Of a stretch of DNA of 50,870 bases, positions 2,288-21,928 are shown piece by piece. The notes under the pieces are model-generated. The model ran no database searches, had not been told where the DNA came from, and worked only from the letters and a program-made list of their open reading frames with translations. A program made the position numbers and the translations under genes. Position 1 is the first letter of the stretch; every line of letters begins with the position of its first letter. Origin of the DNA: Alphaproteobacteria bacterium (GTDB taxonomy: Bacteria > Pseudomonadota > Alphaproteobacteria > Reyranellales > Reyranellaceae); assembly GCA_016869975.1 (NCBI GenBank), contig VGCZ01000039.1, positions 1-50,870 of the forward strand, in the 5' to 3' direction.

Positions 2288-5002
2288 ATGGACAGCAACC
2301 TCTTCAAATATGTCTGGCGCAACAGCAGGCCCGAGCAGCTCATCATCCTGGGCCTGGTCGTGCTGGCGCAGGTGTTCTATTTCGCCTCGCTGAACATCCC
2401 CAAGACCATCGTCAACGACGGCATCGAGGGCAAGGCGTTCAAGAGCGCCCAGACGGTGCCGTTCCTGCGCATCGACCTGCCGATTCCCTCCTTCATCTCG
2501 GATGTCGGCTCGATCCGCCTGTCCGACGGCCTGTCGTTGGCGCAGTGGCCCTACCTGGTGGGCATGAGTTGCCTGTTCCTGGTGATGGTCACCATCAACG
2601 GGTTGTTCAAGAAGACCATCAACACCCAGAAGGGCCGCATGGGCGAGCGCATGCTGCGCCGCCTGCGCTATCAGCTCTACGACCGGATCCTGCTGTTCCC
2701 GCCGGCCCATTTCCGCAAGGTCAAGCAGGCCGAGCTGGCGGGCATGATCAACAACGAGATCGAGCCGCTGGGCGGCTTCATCGGCGACGCCTATGTCCAG
2801 CCCGCCTTCCTCGGCGGCCAGGCGATCACCGCGCTCTTGTTCATCATGCTGCAGAACATCTGGCTGGGCCTGATCGTGATCGCCGTGCTGGCGGTGCAGG
2901 CCTTCATCATCCCAAAGCTGCGGCGAAAAATCGTCGCGCTGGGCAAGCAACGCCAGATCACCGCCCGGCAATTCTCCGGCCGCGTCGCTGAGACGGTCGA
3001 CGGTGTGCAGGAGGTGCACATCCACGCCGCTTCGAACTACGAGCGCGCCGATATCGTGGGCCGGTTGGGCCGCATCTTCCACATCCGCTTCGAGCTCTTC
3101 CAGCGCAAGTTCACCGCCAAGTTCCTCAACAACCTCTTGGCGCAGACGACGCCGTTCCTCATCTACCTGATCGGCGGTTACTTCGTGCTGTTCGGCGATA
3201 TGCAGGTCGGCGCCGTGGTCGGCGTACTGCTGGCCTACAAGGACCTGCCCGGCCCGGTGAAGGAGCTGATCGACTGGGACCAGCAGCGCCAAGACATGCA
3301 GCAGCGTTACGAGCAGGTGATCGAGCAGTTCGAACCCGACGGCATGCTGGCGGCCGAGCTGCAGGCGATCCCCAACGCCGCCGCGCCGGCGCTCAGCGGC
3401 GCGGTCCAGCTCAACGGCGTGGCCCTGGCCGAGGAGGGCGGCGCACCCATGCTCGACGCCGTCACGCTCAGCTTCCCGATCGGTCGGAAGGTTGCCGTGG
3501 TCGGCGGCGCCGGCGGCGGCAAGGAAGCGCTGGCGCAGGTCGTCGCCCGGGTGGCCCACCCGACCGCCGGCGGCGTGGCGATCGGCGGCAAGGATCTCGC
3601 GGAGCTGCCCGAAGCTGCGGTCGGCGCGCGCCTGTCCTATGTCGGCCAGGACGTCTACCTGCTGCCGGTGACGATCCGCGAGAACCTGCTCTACGGCTTG
3701 AAGTTCCGACCGCGCGGGCCGGCGGCCTACGAGGGTGCCGCTCTGCGGCAACGCGAAACCGAGGAGCGCGAAGCCCGTCGCGCCGGCAACCCGGTGCTCG
3801 ATGTCGCCGCCGATTGGGTCGACTACGAGGCCGCCGGCGCCAGCGGTCCGCACGACATCGACCAGCGCGTCATCGAGGCGCTGCGCGTCGTCGAACTCGA
3901 GGCCGACGTCTACCGCTACGGCCTGCGCGGCACCATCGCTCCCGCCGAGCGCCCGGCGGTGGCCGAGTCGATCCTTAAGGCGCGCGCCGAGCTGCACAGC
4001 CGGCTGGCCGACCCGGCCTTCGCCGGCCTGGTCGAGCCCTTCGACCGCGACCGCTACAACCGCAACATGTCGGTGGCCGAGAACGTGCTCTTCGGCACGC
4101 CGATGGGGCGTACCTTCGAGCCCGACAACATCACCGCCAATCCCTATATGCGGAAGGTGCTCAACGAGCTGGACCTCGCCACGCCGCTGGCCGAAATGGG
4201 CGTCGAGATCGCCCGTACCATGGTCGAGCTGTTCGCCGACCTGCCGGCCGGCCATCCCTTCTTCGAGCAGTTCAGCTTCATCACCGCCGAGGAGCTGCCG
4301 GAGTACCGCGCCTTGCTCACCCGGCTGAGCGGCCGCACCGTCGCCGACCTCTCTTCCGAGGAACGCGCACGCCTGCGGGCGCTGCCCTTCCGCTACATTG
4401 AGGCGCGTCATCGCCTGGGCCTGATCGACGAGGCGATGGAGCAGCGGTTGCTCGCGGCGCGCCAGGCCTTCGCGGCGGGCTTGCCGACGGAACTCGCGAG
4501 CGACATCGAGTTCTACGACGTCGCCCGCTACAACGGCGCTGCCACCTTGCAGGACAACATCCTGTTCGGCCGCCTCGTCTACGGCCAGGCGCAGGGCGCC
4601 GACCGGGTGGGCGACCTGATCGGCGAGGTGCTCGACGGCCTGGGCGTGCGCAACGCCGTGGTCCAGGTCGGGCTCGACTACAATGTCGGCGTCGCGGGCA
4701 AGCGGCTGTCGGCCGGCCAGCGCCAGAAGGTCGGCATCGCCCGCGCGCTGCTGAAGCGGCCCGACCTGCTGGTACTCAACGAGCCGACCGCGGTGCTCGA
4801 CGCCGCCACGCAGCAGCGCCTGCTCGACAAGATCCTGGCGGCCCGCGGCGCGCTGGGCGTGCTGTGGACGCTCAGCCGCACGGCGCAGGCGGAGCGCTTC
4901 GACGAGGTGATCGTCATGCAGGGCGGGCGGATGACGGCGCGCGGCGCGCCGTCGGAGCTGTCGGGCGACAAGACATACACCGACCTATTGGCGGCCGGGT
5001 GA
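2288..5002 (+). CDS. ABC-exporter-like protein with a split, degenerate nucleotide-binding domain
   Basis: 904 residues against about 600 for a usual half-exporter. Residues 1-340 look like an exporter membrane domain, with helices near 17-37, 88-105, 176-210 and 285-320. The ATPase domain starts normally: Walker A GGAGGGKE (407-414, with Glu where Ser/Thr is expected), then the Q-loop YVGQDVYLLP and TIRENLLYG (462-470). About 340 extra residues follow before the signature LSAGQ (807-811). Walker B is LLVLNEPT, with Asn831 replacing the Mg-binding Asp, although Glu832 remains. The switch His is absent (TLSRTAQ). The insert repeats the post-Q-loop motif as VAENVLFG and LQDNILFG. It lies 18 bp before a cyclic-nucleotide-binding gene, probably in the same operon. 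Transport activity is doubtful; a regulated or sensory membrane ATPase is possible. Confidence 0.85.
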   Translation: MDSNLFKYVWRNSRPEQLIILGLVVLAQVFYFASLNIPKTIVNDGIEGKAFKSAQTVPFLRIDLPIPSFISDVGSIRLSDGLSLAQWPYLVGMSCLFLVMVTINGLFKKTINTQKGRMGERMLRRLRYQLYDRILLFPPAHFRKVKQAELAGMINNEIEPLGGFIGDAYVQPAFLGGQAITALLFIMLQNIWLGLIVIAVLAVQAFIIPKLRRKIVALGKQRQITARQFSGRVAETVDGVQEVHIHAASNYERADIVGRLGRIFHIRFELFQRKFTAKFLNNLLAQTTPFLIYLIGGYFVLFGDMQVGAVVGVLLAYKDLPGPVKELIDWDQQRQDMQQRYEQVIEQFEPDGMLAAELQAIPNAAAPALSGAVQLNGVALAEEGGAPMLDAVTLSFPIGRKVAVVGGAGGGKEALAQVVARVAHPTAGGVAIGGKDLAELPEAAVGARLSYVGQDVYLLPVTIRENLLYGLKFRPRGPAAYEGAALRQRETEEREARRAGNPVLDVAADWVDYEAAGASGPHDIDQRVIEALRVVELEADVYRYGLRGTIAPAERPAVAESILKARAELHSRLADPAFAGLVEPFDRDRYNRNMSVAENVLFGTPMGRTFEPDNITANPYMRKVLNELDLATPLAEMGVEIARTMVELFADLPAGHPFFEQFSFITAEELPEYRALLTRLSGRTVADLSSEERARLRALPFRYIEARHRLGLIDEAMEQRLLAARQAFAAGLPTELASDIEFYDVARYNGAATLQDNILFGRLVYGQAQGADRVGDLIGEVLDGLGVRNAVVQVGLDYNVGVAGKRLSAGQRQKVGIARALLKRPDLLVLNEPTAVLDAATQQRLLDKILAARGALGVLWTLSRTAQAERFDEVIVMQGGRMTARGAPSELSGDKTYTDLLAAG

Positions 5003-5020
5003 TCGCACAGGGGACCAACC

Positions 5021-5473
5021 ATGAGTATCCACGAGGAAGTCGAGCTGCTGAAGGGCGTGCCGCTGTTCGCCAAGCTGGAACCCAACAAGCTGAAGCTGCT
5101 GGCGTTCACCAGCGAGCGCCTGACCTTCGCGCCGGGCCAGGAACTCTGTCACCAGGGCGATATCGGCGACGCGATGTACGTCGTGCTGGGCGGCGCGGCC
5201 GACATCACGATCGACACGCCGTCCGGCCCGCTCAAGGTGGCCGAGCTGAAGAAGAACGGCTTCGTCGGCGAGATCGCCATCCTGTGCGACGTGCCGCGTA
5301 CCGCCACGGTGACCGTGCGCGAGACGCTGACGGCGCTCAAGATCACCAAGGAGCTTTTCTTCCGCATGGTCACCGAGTTCCCGACCATGGCGGTCGAGAT
5401 CATGCGCGAGCTCGCCCATCGCCTCGACGATACCAACCGCCAGCTCAGCGCGATGAGGGCCCGCGCCGCCTGA
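5021..5473 (+). CDS. Cyclic-nucleotide-binding domain protein (Crp/PKA-R type sensor, no DNA-binding domain)
   Basis: 150 residues forming one cNMP-binding domain plus a C-terminal helix. The beta-roll opens with FAPGQELCHQGDIGDAMYVV, and the phosphate-binding cassette reads GFVGEIAILCDVPRTATV, keeping the GE pair and the Arg that contacts the cyclic phosphate. Unlike Crp there is no helix-turn-helix; the protein stops after the helix ELAHRLDDTNRQLSAM. It should therefore act by protein-protein contact, most simply on the adjacent ABC-like membrane protein. It sits 18 bp after that gene and 10 bp before the methyltransferase gene, so the three are probably co-transcribed. Whether it binds cAMP or cGMP cannot be read from the sequence. 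Confidence 0.9.
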   Translation: MSIHEEVELLKGVPLFAKLEPNKLKLLAFTSERLTFAPGQELCHQGDIGDAMYVVLGGAADITIDTPSGPLKVAELKKNGFVGEIAILCDVPRTATVTVRETLTALKITKELFFRMVTEFPTMAVEIMRELAHRLDDTNRQLSAMRARAA

Positions 5474-5483
5474 TCCCCAGCCG

Positions 5484-5972
5484 ATGAGCCGTCTCGACTC
5501 CTTCATTCGCCGCATGCAGGCGCAGCGCGATTGCCTGAACCACGTGGCGCCATTGGTGCGCGCGATGCCAGGTCCGATCCTCGAGGTCGGCCTGGGCAAT
5601 GGCCGCACCTACGACCACCTGCGCGAGCTTTTCCCCGACCGCGCCATCCACGTCTTCGAGCGCGAGGTGCGCGCCCATCCCGATTGCGTGCCGCCCGACC
5701 GGTTCCTGTTTCTCGGCGACGCGCGCGAGACCACGGCCAAGGCCTGCGACCGGCTCGCCGGCGCCGCCGCGCTGATCCATTCCGATCTCGGTACCGGCGA
5801 CCACGCCGCCAACACGGAGATCGGCCGATGGCTGGGGCCGGCGCTCGACCGGCTGCTTGCGCCCGGCGGCTATGTCGTGGCCAACCAGCCGCTCGATGTG
5901 GCGCGCTGGGTGCGGCTGCCGGAACCCGACGGCGTGCCGCGCGACCGCTATTTTCTCTACCGCGCCGGCTAG
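5484..5972 (+). CDS. Class I SAM-dependent methyltransferase
   Basis: 162 residues with a Rossmann methyltransferase core. Motif I is ILEVGLGNGRTYDHL, the acidic end of the second strand is HVFERE, and a later strand reads AALIHSDLGTGD before LLAPGGYVVANQP. The length suits a small single-domain enzyme without a substrate-recognition domain, so the methyl acceptor is unknown. It is the third gene of the ABC-like/cNMP-binding cluster. Its TAG stop lies inside a CTAG that also supplies the stop of the convergent GlsB-like gene, so the two 3' ends overlap. Confidence 0.85.
   Translation: MSRLDSFIRRMQAQRDCLNHVAPLVRAMPGPILEVGLGNGRTYDHLRELFPDRAIHVFEREVRAHPDCVPPDRFLFLGDARETTAKACDRLAGAAALIHSDLGTGDHAANTEIGRWLGPALDRLLAPGGYVVANQPLDVARWVRLPEPDGVPRDRYFLYRAG

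Positions 5973-18736: not shown

Positions 18737-21928
<3,192 letters not shown>

Follow-up and report, generated by a model that had tools for sequence, protein, structure and literature searches.

The stretch of DNA analyzed here, referred to as the window, is the 50,870-nt contig VGCZ01000039.1 (assembly GCA_016869975.1) of a Reyranellaceae alphaproteobacterium. At positions 2288 to 5002 of the forward strand it encodes a 904-amino-acid ATP-binding cassette (ABC)-like protein, designated ABCi, which its open reading frame, Pfam matches, and structure prediction describe as a pseudo-ATPase with an ABC exporter fold and a split nucleotide-binding domain. We consider it probable, at roughly 60%, that ABCi provides the membrane part of a surface-polysaccharide system conserved in Alphaproteobacteria, in which it serves as a cyclic-nucleotide-gated and probably nonhydrolyzing platform for making or exporting a glycan. 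An initial annotation, made from the sequence of the window, had proposed either a cyclic-nucleotide-controlled membrane regulator or an exporter with unusual energetics, and it overlooked the link to surface-polysaccharide genes.

The ATP site has decayed in nearly all members of the ABCi family, while the transmembrane domain and key residues of a large insert in the ATPase domain persist. In the window protein, Walker A reads GGAGGGKE (residues 406 to 413; positions 3503 to 3526), the Walker B Asp in LLVLNE (residues 827 to 832; positions 4766 to 4783) is replaced by Asn831, and Ser863 occupies the position of the switch His, as the initial annotation had stated. The signature, LSAGQ (residues 807 to 811; positions 4706 to 4720), is also degenerate in the family alignment. 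To count these motifs, 154 family proteins were reduced to 147 that were nonredundant at 95% identity, 146 of which had both Walker columns filled. Walker A carried K[ST] in 6/146 members and K[DE] in 81/146. The Walker B Asp was kept in 15/146 (Asn 97, Ser 19, and Asp 15 among the 147 rows) and the D-E pair in 3/146. Only two of the 146 members (L112 and L175) had canonical Walker A and Walker B motifs jointly, and both still carry the insert, so the degeneracy that had been noticed in one protein is a property of the family. A pattern count found both Walker motifs in 27 of 28 control ABC ATPase frames from the same loci, from which any frame matching the family's transmembrane domain or insert was left out, versus 2/147 family members. 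The strict signature LSGG[QEM] was present in none of the 147 members, though just 11 of the 28 controls carry it. The Q-loop Gln (Gln454; positions 3647 to 3649) is Gln in only 37/147 rows, and the switch column is His in 35/147, so that the ordinary His is mostly gone. By these measures ABCi lacks a canonical ATP site (GK[ST], D-E, LSGGQ, and switch His).

The losses are spread over the family. On a 146-member tree, replacement of the Walker A Lys by Arg required 15 changes, at least 13 of them forced by well-supported branches. A clade with canonical Walker motifs was looked for, but the six K[ST] members lie apart from one another (5 tree changes). The tree had no outgroup and thus gives no order of motif loss. 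The transmembrane domain (residues 1 to 345; positions 2288 to 3322; Pfam ABC_membrane at residues 88 to 313) is the most conserved part of the family. Measured over residues 86 to 345, 38 of its 260 positions are conserved at 95% or more, compared with 17/319 in the insert, 5/100 in the Walker B half of the ATPase domain, and 2/101 in the Walker A half. The mean frequency of the top residue is 0.65 in the transmembrane domain, 0.56 in the insert, 0.56 in the Walker B half, and 0.52 in the Walker A half.

The chief rival to a nonhydrolyzing platform is a functional ABC transporter that exports a lipid-linked glycan and would either use an unusual GK[DE] ATP site or pair with a canonical half-transporter encoded elsewhere. 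This possibility, which we judge unlikely, is kept alive by the Walker A Lys, present in 95/147 members (mostly as the K[DE] counted above), by Glu at the catalytic position in 77/147 rows and the signature Gln in 128/147, and by the exporter fold and the glycosyltransferase genes among the neighbors. It is countered by the loss of the Lys elsewhere, with Arg in 34/147 and other residues in 18/147, by the scarcity of the Walker B Asp, and by members in which no Walker A can be recognized (L105, L106, and L109 among them). No half-exporter was identified among the part of the recurring neighbor clusters, computed after removal of overlapping (shadow) frames, that was assigned an identity, and a partner could hardly rebuild a full site from a protein in which the Walker and signature sides have both decayed. 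We lean toward a nonhydrolyzing ABCi over an exporter with unusual energetics, since 52/147 members have another residue in place of the Walker A Lys.

The insert lies between the Q-loop and the signature. In the window protein 354 residues separate Gln454 from the signature Leu807, versus about 55 in P-glycoprotein as read off an alignment. The extra residues that the initial annotation had reported at this site are therefore real, but their number is nearer 300 than 340. The spacing is 354 residues in 82/146 members and 343 to 372 residues in all but six. The motif (R/A/Q)(E/D)N(L/V/I)L(Y/F)G occurs three times, exactly where it had been annotated, as RENLLYG at residues 464 to 470 (positions 3677 to 3697), AENVLFG at 597 to 603 (4076 to 4096), and QDNILFG at 755 to 761 (4550 to 4570); none of 20,000 shuffles of the protein contained three copies. 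The Asn of each copy is nearly invariant (Asn466 in 143, Asn599 in 147, and Asn757 in 146 of 147 rows).

Profile-profile comparison placed these motifs within three repeats: repeat 1 at residues 446 to 586 (positions 3623 to 4045), repeat 2 at 580 to 748 (4025 to 4531), which contains a near-invariant GHPFFEQFSF stretch, and repeat 3 at 738 to 826 (4499 to 4765), which runs into the canonical signature helix. With 146 to 147 sequences, the pairs scored 45.5 (repeats 1 and 2), 39.5 (1 and 3), and 77.4 (2 and 3), all higher than the best of 60 column shuffles for the same pair (17.0, 16.0, and 15.5, respectively). When 46 sequences were used, only repeats 2 and 3 were clearly related. These scores indicate that the three repeats are homologous and that the insert is a tripled helical lobe inside the ATPase domain, and they support the earlier proposal that it arose by repeated duplication of the Q-loop segment.

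Structure prediction suggests how the insert is accommodated. Above the cutoff, ABCi matched Pfam ABC_membrane and ABC_tran, the latter in two stretches. The full-length model (mean predicted local distance difference test score [pLDDT] of 83.6) aligned with the exporter 6quz (Z score of 30.4; root mean square deviation [rmsd] of 2.9 over 387 residues) and with the ATPase domain of ComA, 3vx4 (Z score of 30.8; rmsd of 1.9 over 238 residues). Pfam and these alignments at Z scores of about 30 place ABCi in the ABC exporter superfamily (type IV fold). Given how well the full model aligns, the ABC core is predicted to form its usual closed fold with the insert in place. Modeled by itself (residues 472 to 800; positions 3701 to 4687), the insert is predicted to be helical with a mean pLDDT of 92.4. 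Foldseek returned no match for the insert model in the PDB at an E value of 0.001 or better. In a second structural search the first 41 of the best 50 rows were ABC proteins, aligned weakly and mostly to repeat 2, and the best row, also weak, was 7x1w (Z score of 5.6; rmsd of 3.2 over 74 residues, within residues 588 to 730 of the protein). This likeness in the model is consistent with the repeat finding, and a new fold is not demonstrated.

ABCi is closely linked to a putative sensor. A stand-alone gene for a cyclic-nucleotide-binding domain (positions 5021 to 5473, forward strand) begins 18 bp past the ABCi stop, and its 150-amino-acid product matches Pfam cNMP_binding (PF00027; E value of 2.4e-17) and no other Pfam domain. 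A gene for an S-adenosylmethionine (SAM) methyltransferase (positions 5484 to 5972, forward strand) begins 10 bp past the sensor gene. The close spacing and the identities first given to both genes are borne out by these gaps and by firm Pfam matches. Linkage was counted in 80 loci, each from a different genome; they were chosen by hand among the 130 genomes with ABCi, with preference for high scores and long contigs, and are thus not random. The sensor adjoined or was fused to ABCi in 79 of the 80 (78 by automated count and L143 read from the locus map), with 6/80 being fusions. Further fusions occur in L046, L065, L105, L106, L109 to L112, L202, and L203. The initial annotation had made its interpretation depend on this linkage, which is conserved; the check it proposed, whether all three genes stay adjacent, comes out positive for the sensor but not for the methyltransferase, present in just 45/80 loci.

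The sensor has a phosphate-binding cassette that runs from Gly83-Glu84 to the ligand arginine, Arg93 (positions 5267 to 5299), and these residues are Gly in 148/148 sequences, Glu in 141/148 (Asp in 7), and Arg in 148/148. On the basis of the PF00027 match and these Gly-Glu and Arg residues, the sensor qualifies as a cyclic-nucleotide-binding domain. Considered with the decay of the ATP site, this conservation means that the ATP pocket of the family decays while the cyclic-nucleotide pocket has been held. The sensor shares its fold family and cassette with CRP/FNR-type proteins but differs from them in its small size, in the lack of any matched DNA-binding domain, and in being genetically tied to a membrane protein.

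Some loci also encode a class III cyclase. Its gene adjoins ABCi or the sensor in L190, L191, L193, and L113; in L115 less than 1 kb separates it from the sensor gene, in L116 the distance is about 6 kb, and in five rhizobial loci it is 6 to 12 kb. There are 20 cyclase matches elsewhere in the genome of the window. In a divergent relative, L103, a cyclase match lies immediately beside the ABCi relative.

The alternative that an ordinary ABC exporter gene is drifting into decay beside coincidental neighbors can be addressed at this point. Motif decay in the window copy by itself would look the same, but the long open frames, the conserved length of the insert, and the conserved linkage across the family contradict it, making drift extremely improbable.

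ABCi is a widespread conserved family and not a single odd gene. A scan of genome contigs yielded 58 loci, comprising 57 relatives at 31 to 95% identity, some clipped by contig ends, and one weak partial match (L066). The search profile was built from an alignment (A1) of 45 relatives and the window sequence. Thirteen loci were kept out of it: three partial loci (L030, L031, and L054), the weak match, and nine judged redundant by eye without a formal cutoff (L013, L028, L038, L041, L043, L044, L052, L056, and L063). Profile searches found ABCi in 130 of 385 sampled alphaproteobacterial genomes at an E value of 1e-100 or better, and some loci from these whole genomes are the same records as loci of the contig scan. 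Nearly all of the matches in the 130 genomes are full length and span the insert; the remainder are fragments or matches split into pieces. In a sample across the phylum, 32/398 genomes matched at an E value of 1e-60 or better, with divergent and partial relatives counted, and 31 of the 32 were Alphaproteobacteria. The exception, G490, has a relative consisting of the transmembrane domain only. The next-best ABC protein in the genome of the window matched at an E value of 1.9e-17, a sharp gap below ABCi. The family is also present in 262 plasmid records, among which Rhizobium and Sinorhizobium predominate.

The initial annotation had named, as refuting its interpretation, homologues that lack the insert and keep canonical Walker B and His; the family scans met no full homologue without the insert, although no search was aimed at them, and the insert-less relatives that were found have no ATPase domain. 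Such transmembrane-only relatives lie at L097:8516-9730, L098:8540-9817 (reverse strand), L099:8932-10200, and L100:1-1149. In L099 it is flanked by genes for a multicopper oxidase and CopB on its upstream side and for a cytochrome c on its downstream side, and L097 and L098 share cupredoxin and cytochrome c clusters and one further neighbor cluster. A divergent group (L101 to L104) retains the insert, but its transmembrane domain has changed strongly and its signature is broken up; at the cutoff used, the loci retrieved for this group yielded no sensor gene.

The polysaccharide connection comes from gene neighborhoods and co-occurrence. Of the same 80 loci, by Pfam name, 66 carry a GT28 gene, 65 carry GT4, and 61 carry a histidine phosphatase. 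These mostly belong to one divergent block, which where linked is mostly in the order GT28-GT4-GT4-phosphatase-GT28. Co-occurrence extends to genomes in which the genes are unlinked. In the genome of the window, the series GT28-GT4-GT4-phosphatase-GT28-c26 is located on a separate contig (C25); c26 has no Pfam match, and its homologue in L199 is annotated as a "polysaccharide deacetylase family protein." Among the 385 genomes, GT28 was present at an E value of 1e-60 or better in 130; 126 genomes had both GT28 and ABCi, 4 had ABCi only, 4 had GT28 only, and 251 had neither. Thus, ABCi co-occurs near-perfectly with glycosyltransferase genes, even unlinked ones.

A rhizobial version of the system points to a specific polysaccharide. 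In Sinorhizobium meliloti R28 the gene order is glycosyltransferase, GT4, glycosyltransferase, methyltransferase (on the opposite strand), ABCi, sensor, FkbM methyltransferase, and LacI regulator. In S. meliloti numbering, smb21265 is reported to be a glycosyltransferase family protein (PMC10128002) and SM_b21272 a LacI-family regulator (PMC11387232). As there are eight genes from glycosyltransferase to LacI in R28 and eight numbers from 21265 to 21272, ABCi would be SMb21269 and the sensor SMb21270, numbers that were counted and not read. Nine genes between smb21252 and smb21271 are reported to be required for an uncharacterized surface polysaccharide, PPP (phazolicin-protecting) (PMC10128002), and by the counted numbers ABCi lies in this region. 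The same source reports that the phazolicin MIC (minimum inhibitory concentration) fell from 1.47 to 0.18, an 8-fold increase in sensitivity, in smb21252 and smb21265 glycosyltransferase mutants, that the adenylate cyclase gene cyaA was strongly depleted in a phazolicin screen, and that PPP is likely involved in symbiosis (PMC10128002). Seven of the nine PPP genes are reported to be upregulated under attack by Myxococcus (PMC10315480).

The region thus contains an ABCi homologue, a sensor gene, and homologous GT28-GT4-GT28 genes, with the gene numbers inferred. Homologues of these glycosyltransferase genes are present in the genome of the window (on contig C25), and 126 of the 130 ABCi genomes have GT28. 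The portion of PMC10128002 that was covered names the glycosyltransferases and the polysaccharide without describing an ABC protein or a sensor. Many ABCi members belong to other orders, in which the cluster is partly different. Several side features of the rhizobial loci were observed. In pSymB of S. meliloti 1021 (L209; NC_003078), ABCi is split into two overlapping frames where R28 has a single frame. An ABC importer (ATPase, binding protein, and permeases) lies inside or beside the rhizobial and Azospirillum clusters L199, L200, L201, L202, and L204, two of which (L201 and L204) also contain a polysaccharide lyase.

These features suggest a mechanism in which an ABCi dimer would operate without cycles of ATP hydrolysis. 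The dead ATPase domains and the tripled lobe would form a platform on the cytosolic side, to which the sensor and perhaps glycosyltransferases are held, and the transmembrane domain would bind or pass a lipid-linked or growing glycan. Binding of cyclic AMP (cAMP) or cyclic GMP (cGMP) to the sensor would shift the platform and open or assemble the path for glycan synthesis or handover across the membrane. Where present, the methyltransferase probably modifies the glycan or its carrier. A more far-reaching version, which we put forward tentatively and regard as possible but doubtful, is that ATP has given way, as the switch ligand, to a cyclic nucleotide bound by a dedicated sensor, so that ABCi would be a second-messenger-gated glycan translocon whose tripled lobe couples the sensor, the glycosyltransferases, and the membrane domain.

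ABCi might instead be purely a regulator or scaffold with no translocation path, which holds glycosyltransferases at the membrane and reports high cyclic nucleotide, in a manner comparable to the logic of sulfonylurea receptors. The decayed ATP site, the sensor linkage, and the glycosyltransferase block speak for such a protein. However, the transmembrane domain is the best-conserved part of ABCi, and the 38 of 260 positions held at 95% or more would be unneeded in a mere anchor, which makes this explanation rather improbable.

Several observations weigh against the gated, nonhydrolyzing platform that we prefer. Retention of the Walker A Lys, the catalytic Glu, and in 35/147 rows the switch His means that ATP binding is still possible. 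The insert is on average not more conserved than the Walker B (C-terminal) half of the ATPase domain. L192 has no sensor match within 8.5 kb downstream of ABCi. Of the 80 class loci, only 3 have a cyclase next to ABCi; in a fourth (L138) it is 3 kb distant and on the opposite strand. The Fisher p value for co-occurrence of GT28 and ABCi, 5e-91, comes from a test that ignores phylogeny. The S. meliloti ABCi may belong to the nine-gene PPP set, but its number, SMb21269, is a counted one. The phazolicin MIC of the cyaA mutant was 0.74, a change that its authors consider small (PMC10128002), and cAMP is reported to act via the regulator Clr on a neighboring polysaccharide cluster (PMC5498481), so a transcriptional path for cAMP is possible instead of the sensor. 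No assay of ATP binding, cyclic-nucleotide binding, or transport was found for the family.

The methyltransferase is an optional partner. It matches Pfam Methyltransf_17 (PF12692) over its whole length (E value of 1.5e-58) and PDB entry 3iht over nearly its whole length (E value of 5e-38), and the glycines of its SAM site are conserved, which places it in the Methyltransf_17 family. A core unit composed of ABCi, the sensor, and the methyltransferase was rejected because the methyltransferase occurs in 45 of 80 loci versus 79 of 80 for the sensor. In the rhizobial locus L201 the methyltransferase gene beside ABCi has no Pfam match, and in L200 and L204 a homologue of the window methyltransferase is located farther from ABCi. 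An antiphage role found no support. PADLOC matches of the ABC and sensor proteins were weak, partial, and to ABC or cyclic-nucleotide-binding parts, and the methyltransferase had none. Upstream of ABCi in the window, on the opposite strand, are genes that Pfam assigns to a WD40-repeat protein (positions 106 to 1128) and a CobW-type GTPase (positions 1125 to 2153); neither type was identified among the recurring neighbors of ABCi loci.

ABCi is predicted to have the same transmembrane and ATPase core fold as exporters of the MsbA, TmrAB, and TM287-288 kind. Unlike them, it has an insert of about 300 residues between Q-loop and signature, has lost catalytic motifs, and is paired with or fused to a cyclic-nucleotide sensor. 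In SMC/Rad50 and UvrA, too, a large insertion separates the halves of the ABC ATPase domain, and sulfonylurea receptors and CFTR are ABC proteins reused as regulators or channels. We know of no protein of these types that combines a triplicated helical lobe with a bacterial cyclic-nucleotide sensor. A literature search aimed at ABCi, its genes, or proteins of its kind, with supplementary files outside its scope, found no paper describing the family. The literature covered describes the polysaccharide cluster of S. meliloti but not the pseudo-ABC protein with its tripled lobe, the sensor, or how widely the family occurs.

ABC exporters are generally regarded as machines driven by ATP, yet this large family retains their architecture while its ATP site decays. 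If the sensor gates ABCi, it would provide a direct, nontranscriptional route from cAMP or cGMP to cell-surface polysaccharide, with a logic parallel to that of the control of cellulose synthase by cyclic di-GMP. ABCi is also a candidate membrane component for the uncharacterized rhizobial PPP, for which protection from a peptide antibiotic has been reported (PMC10128002).

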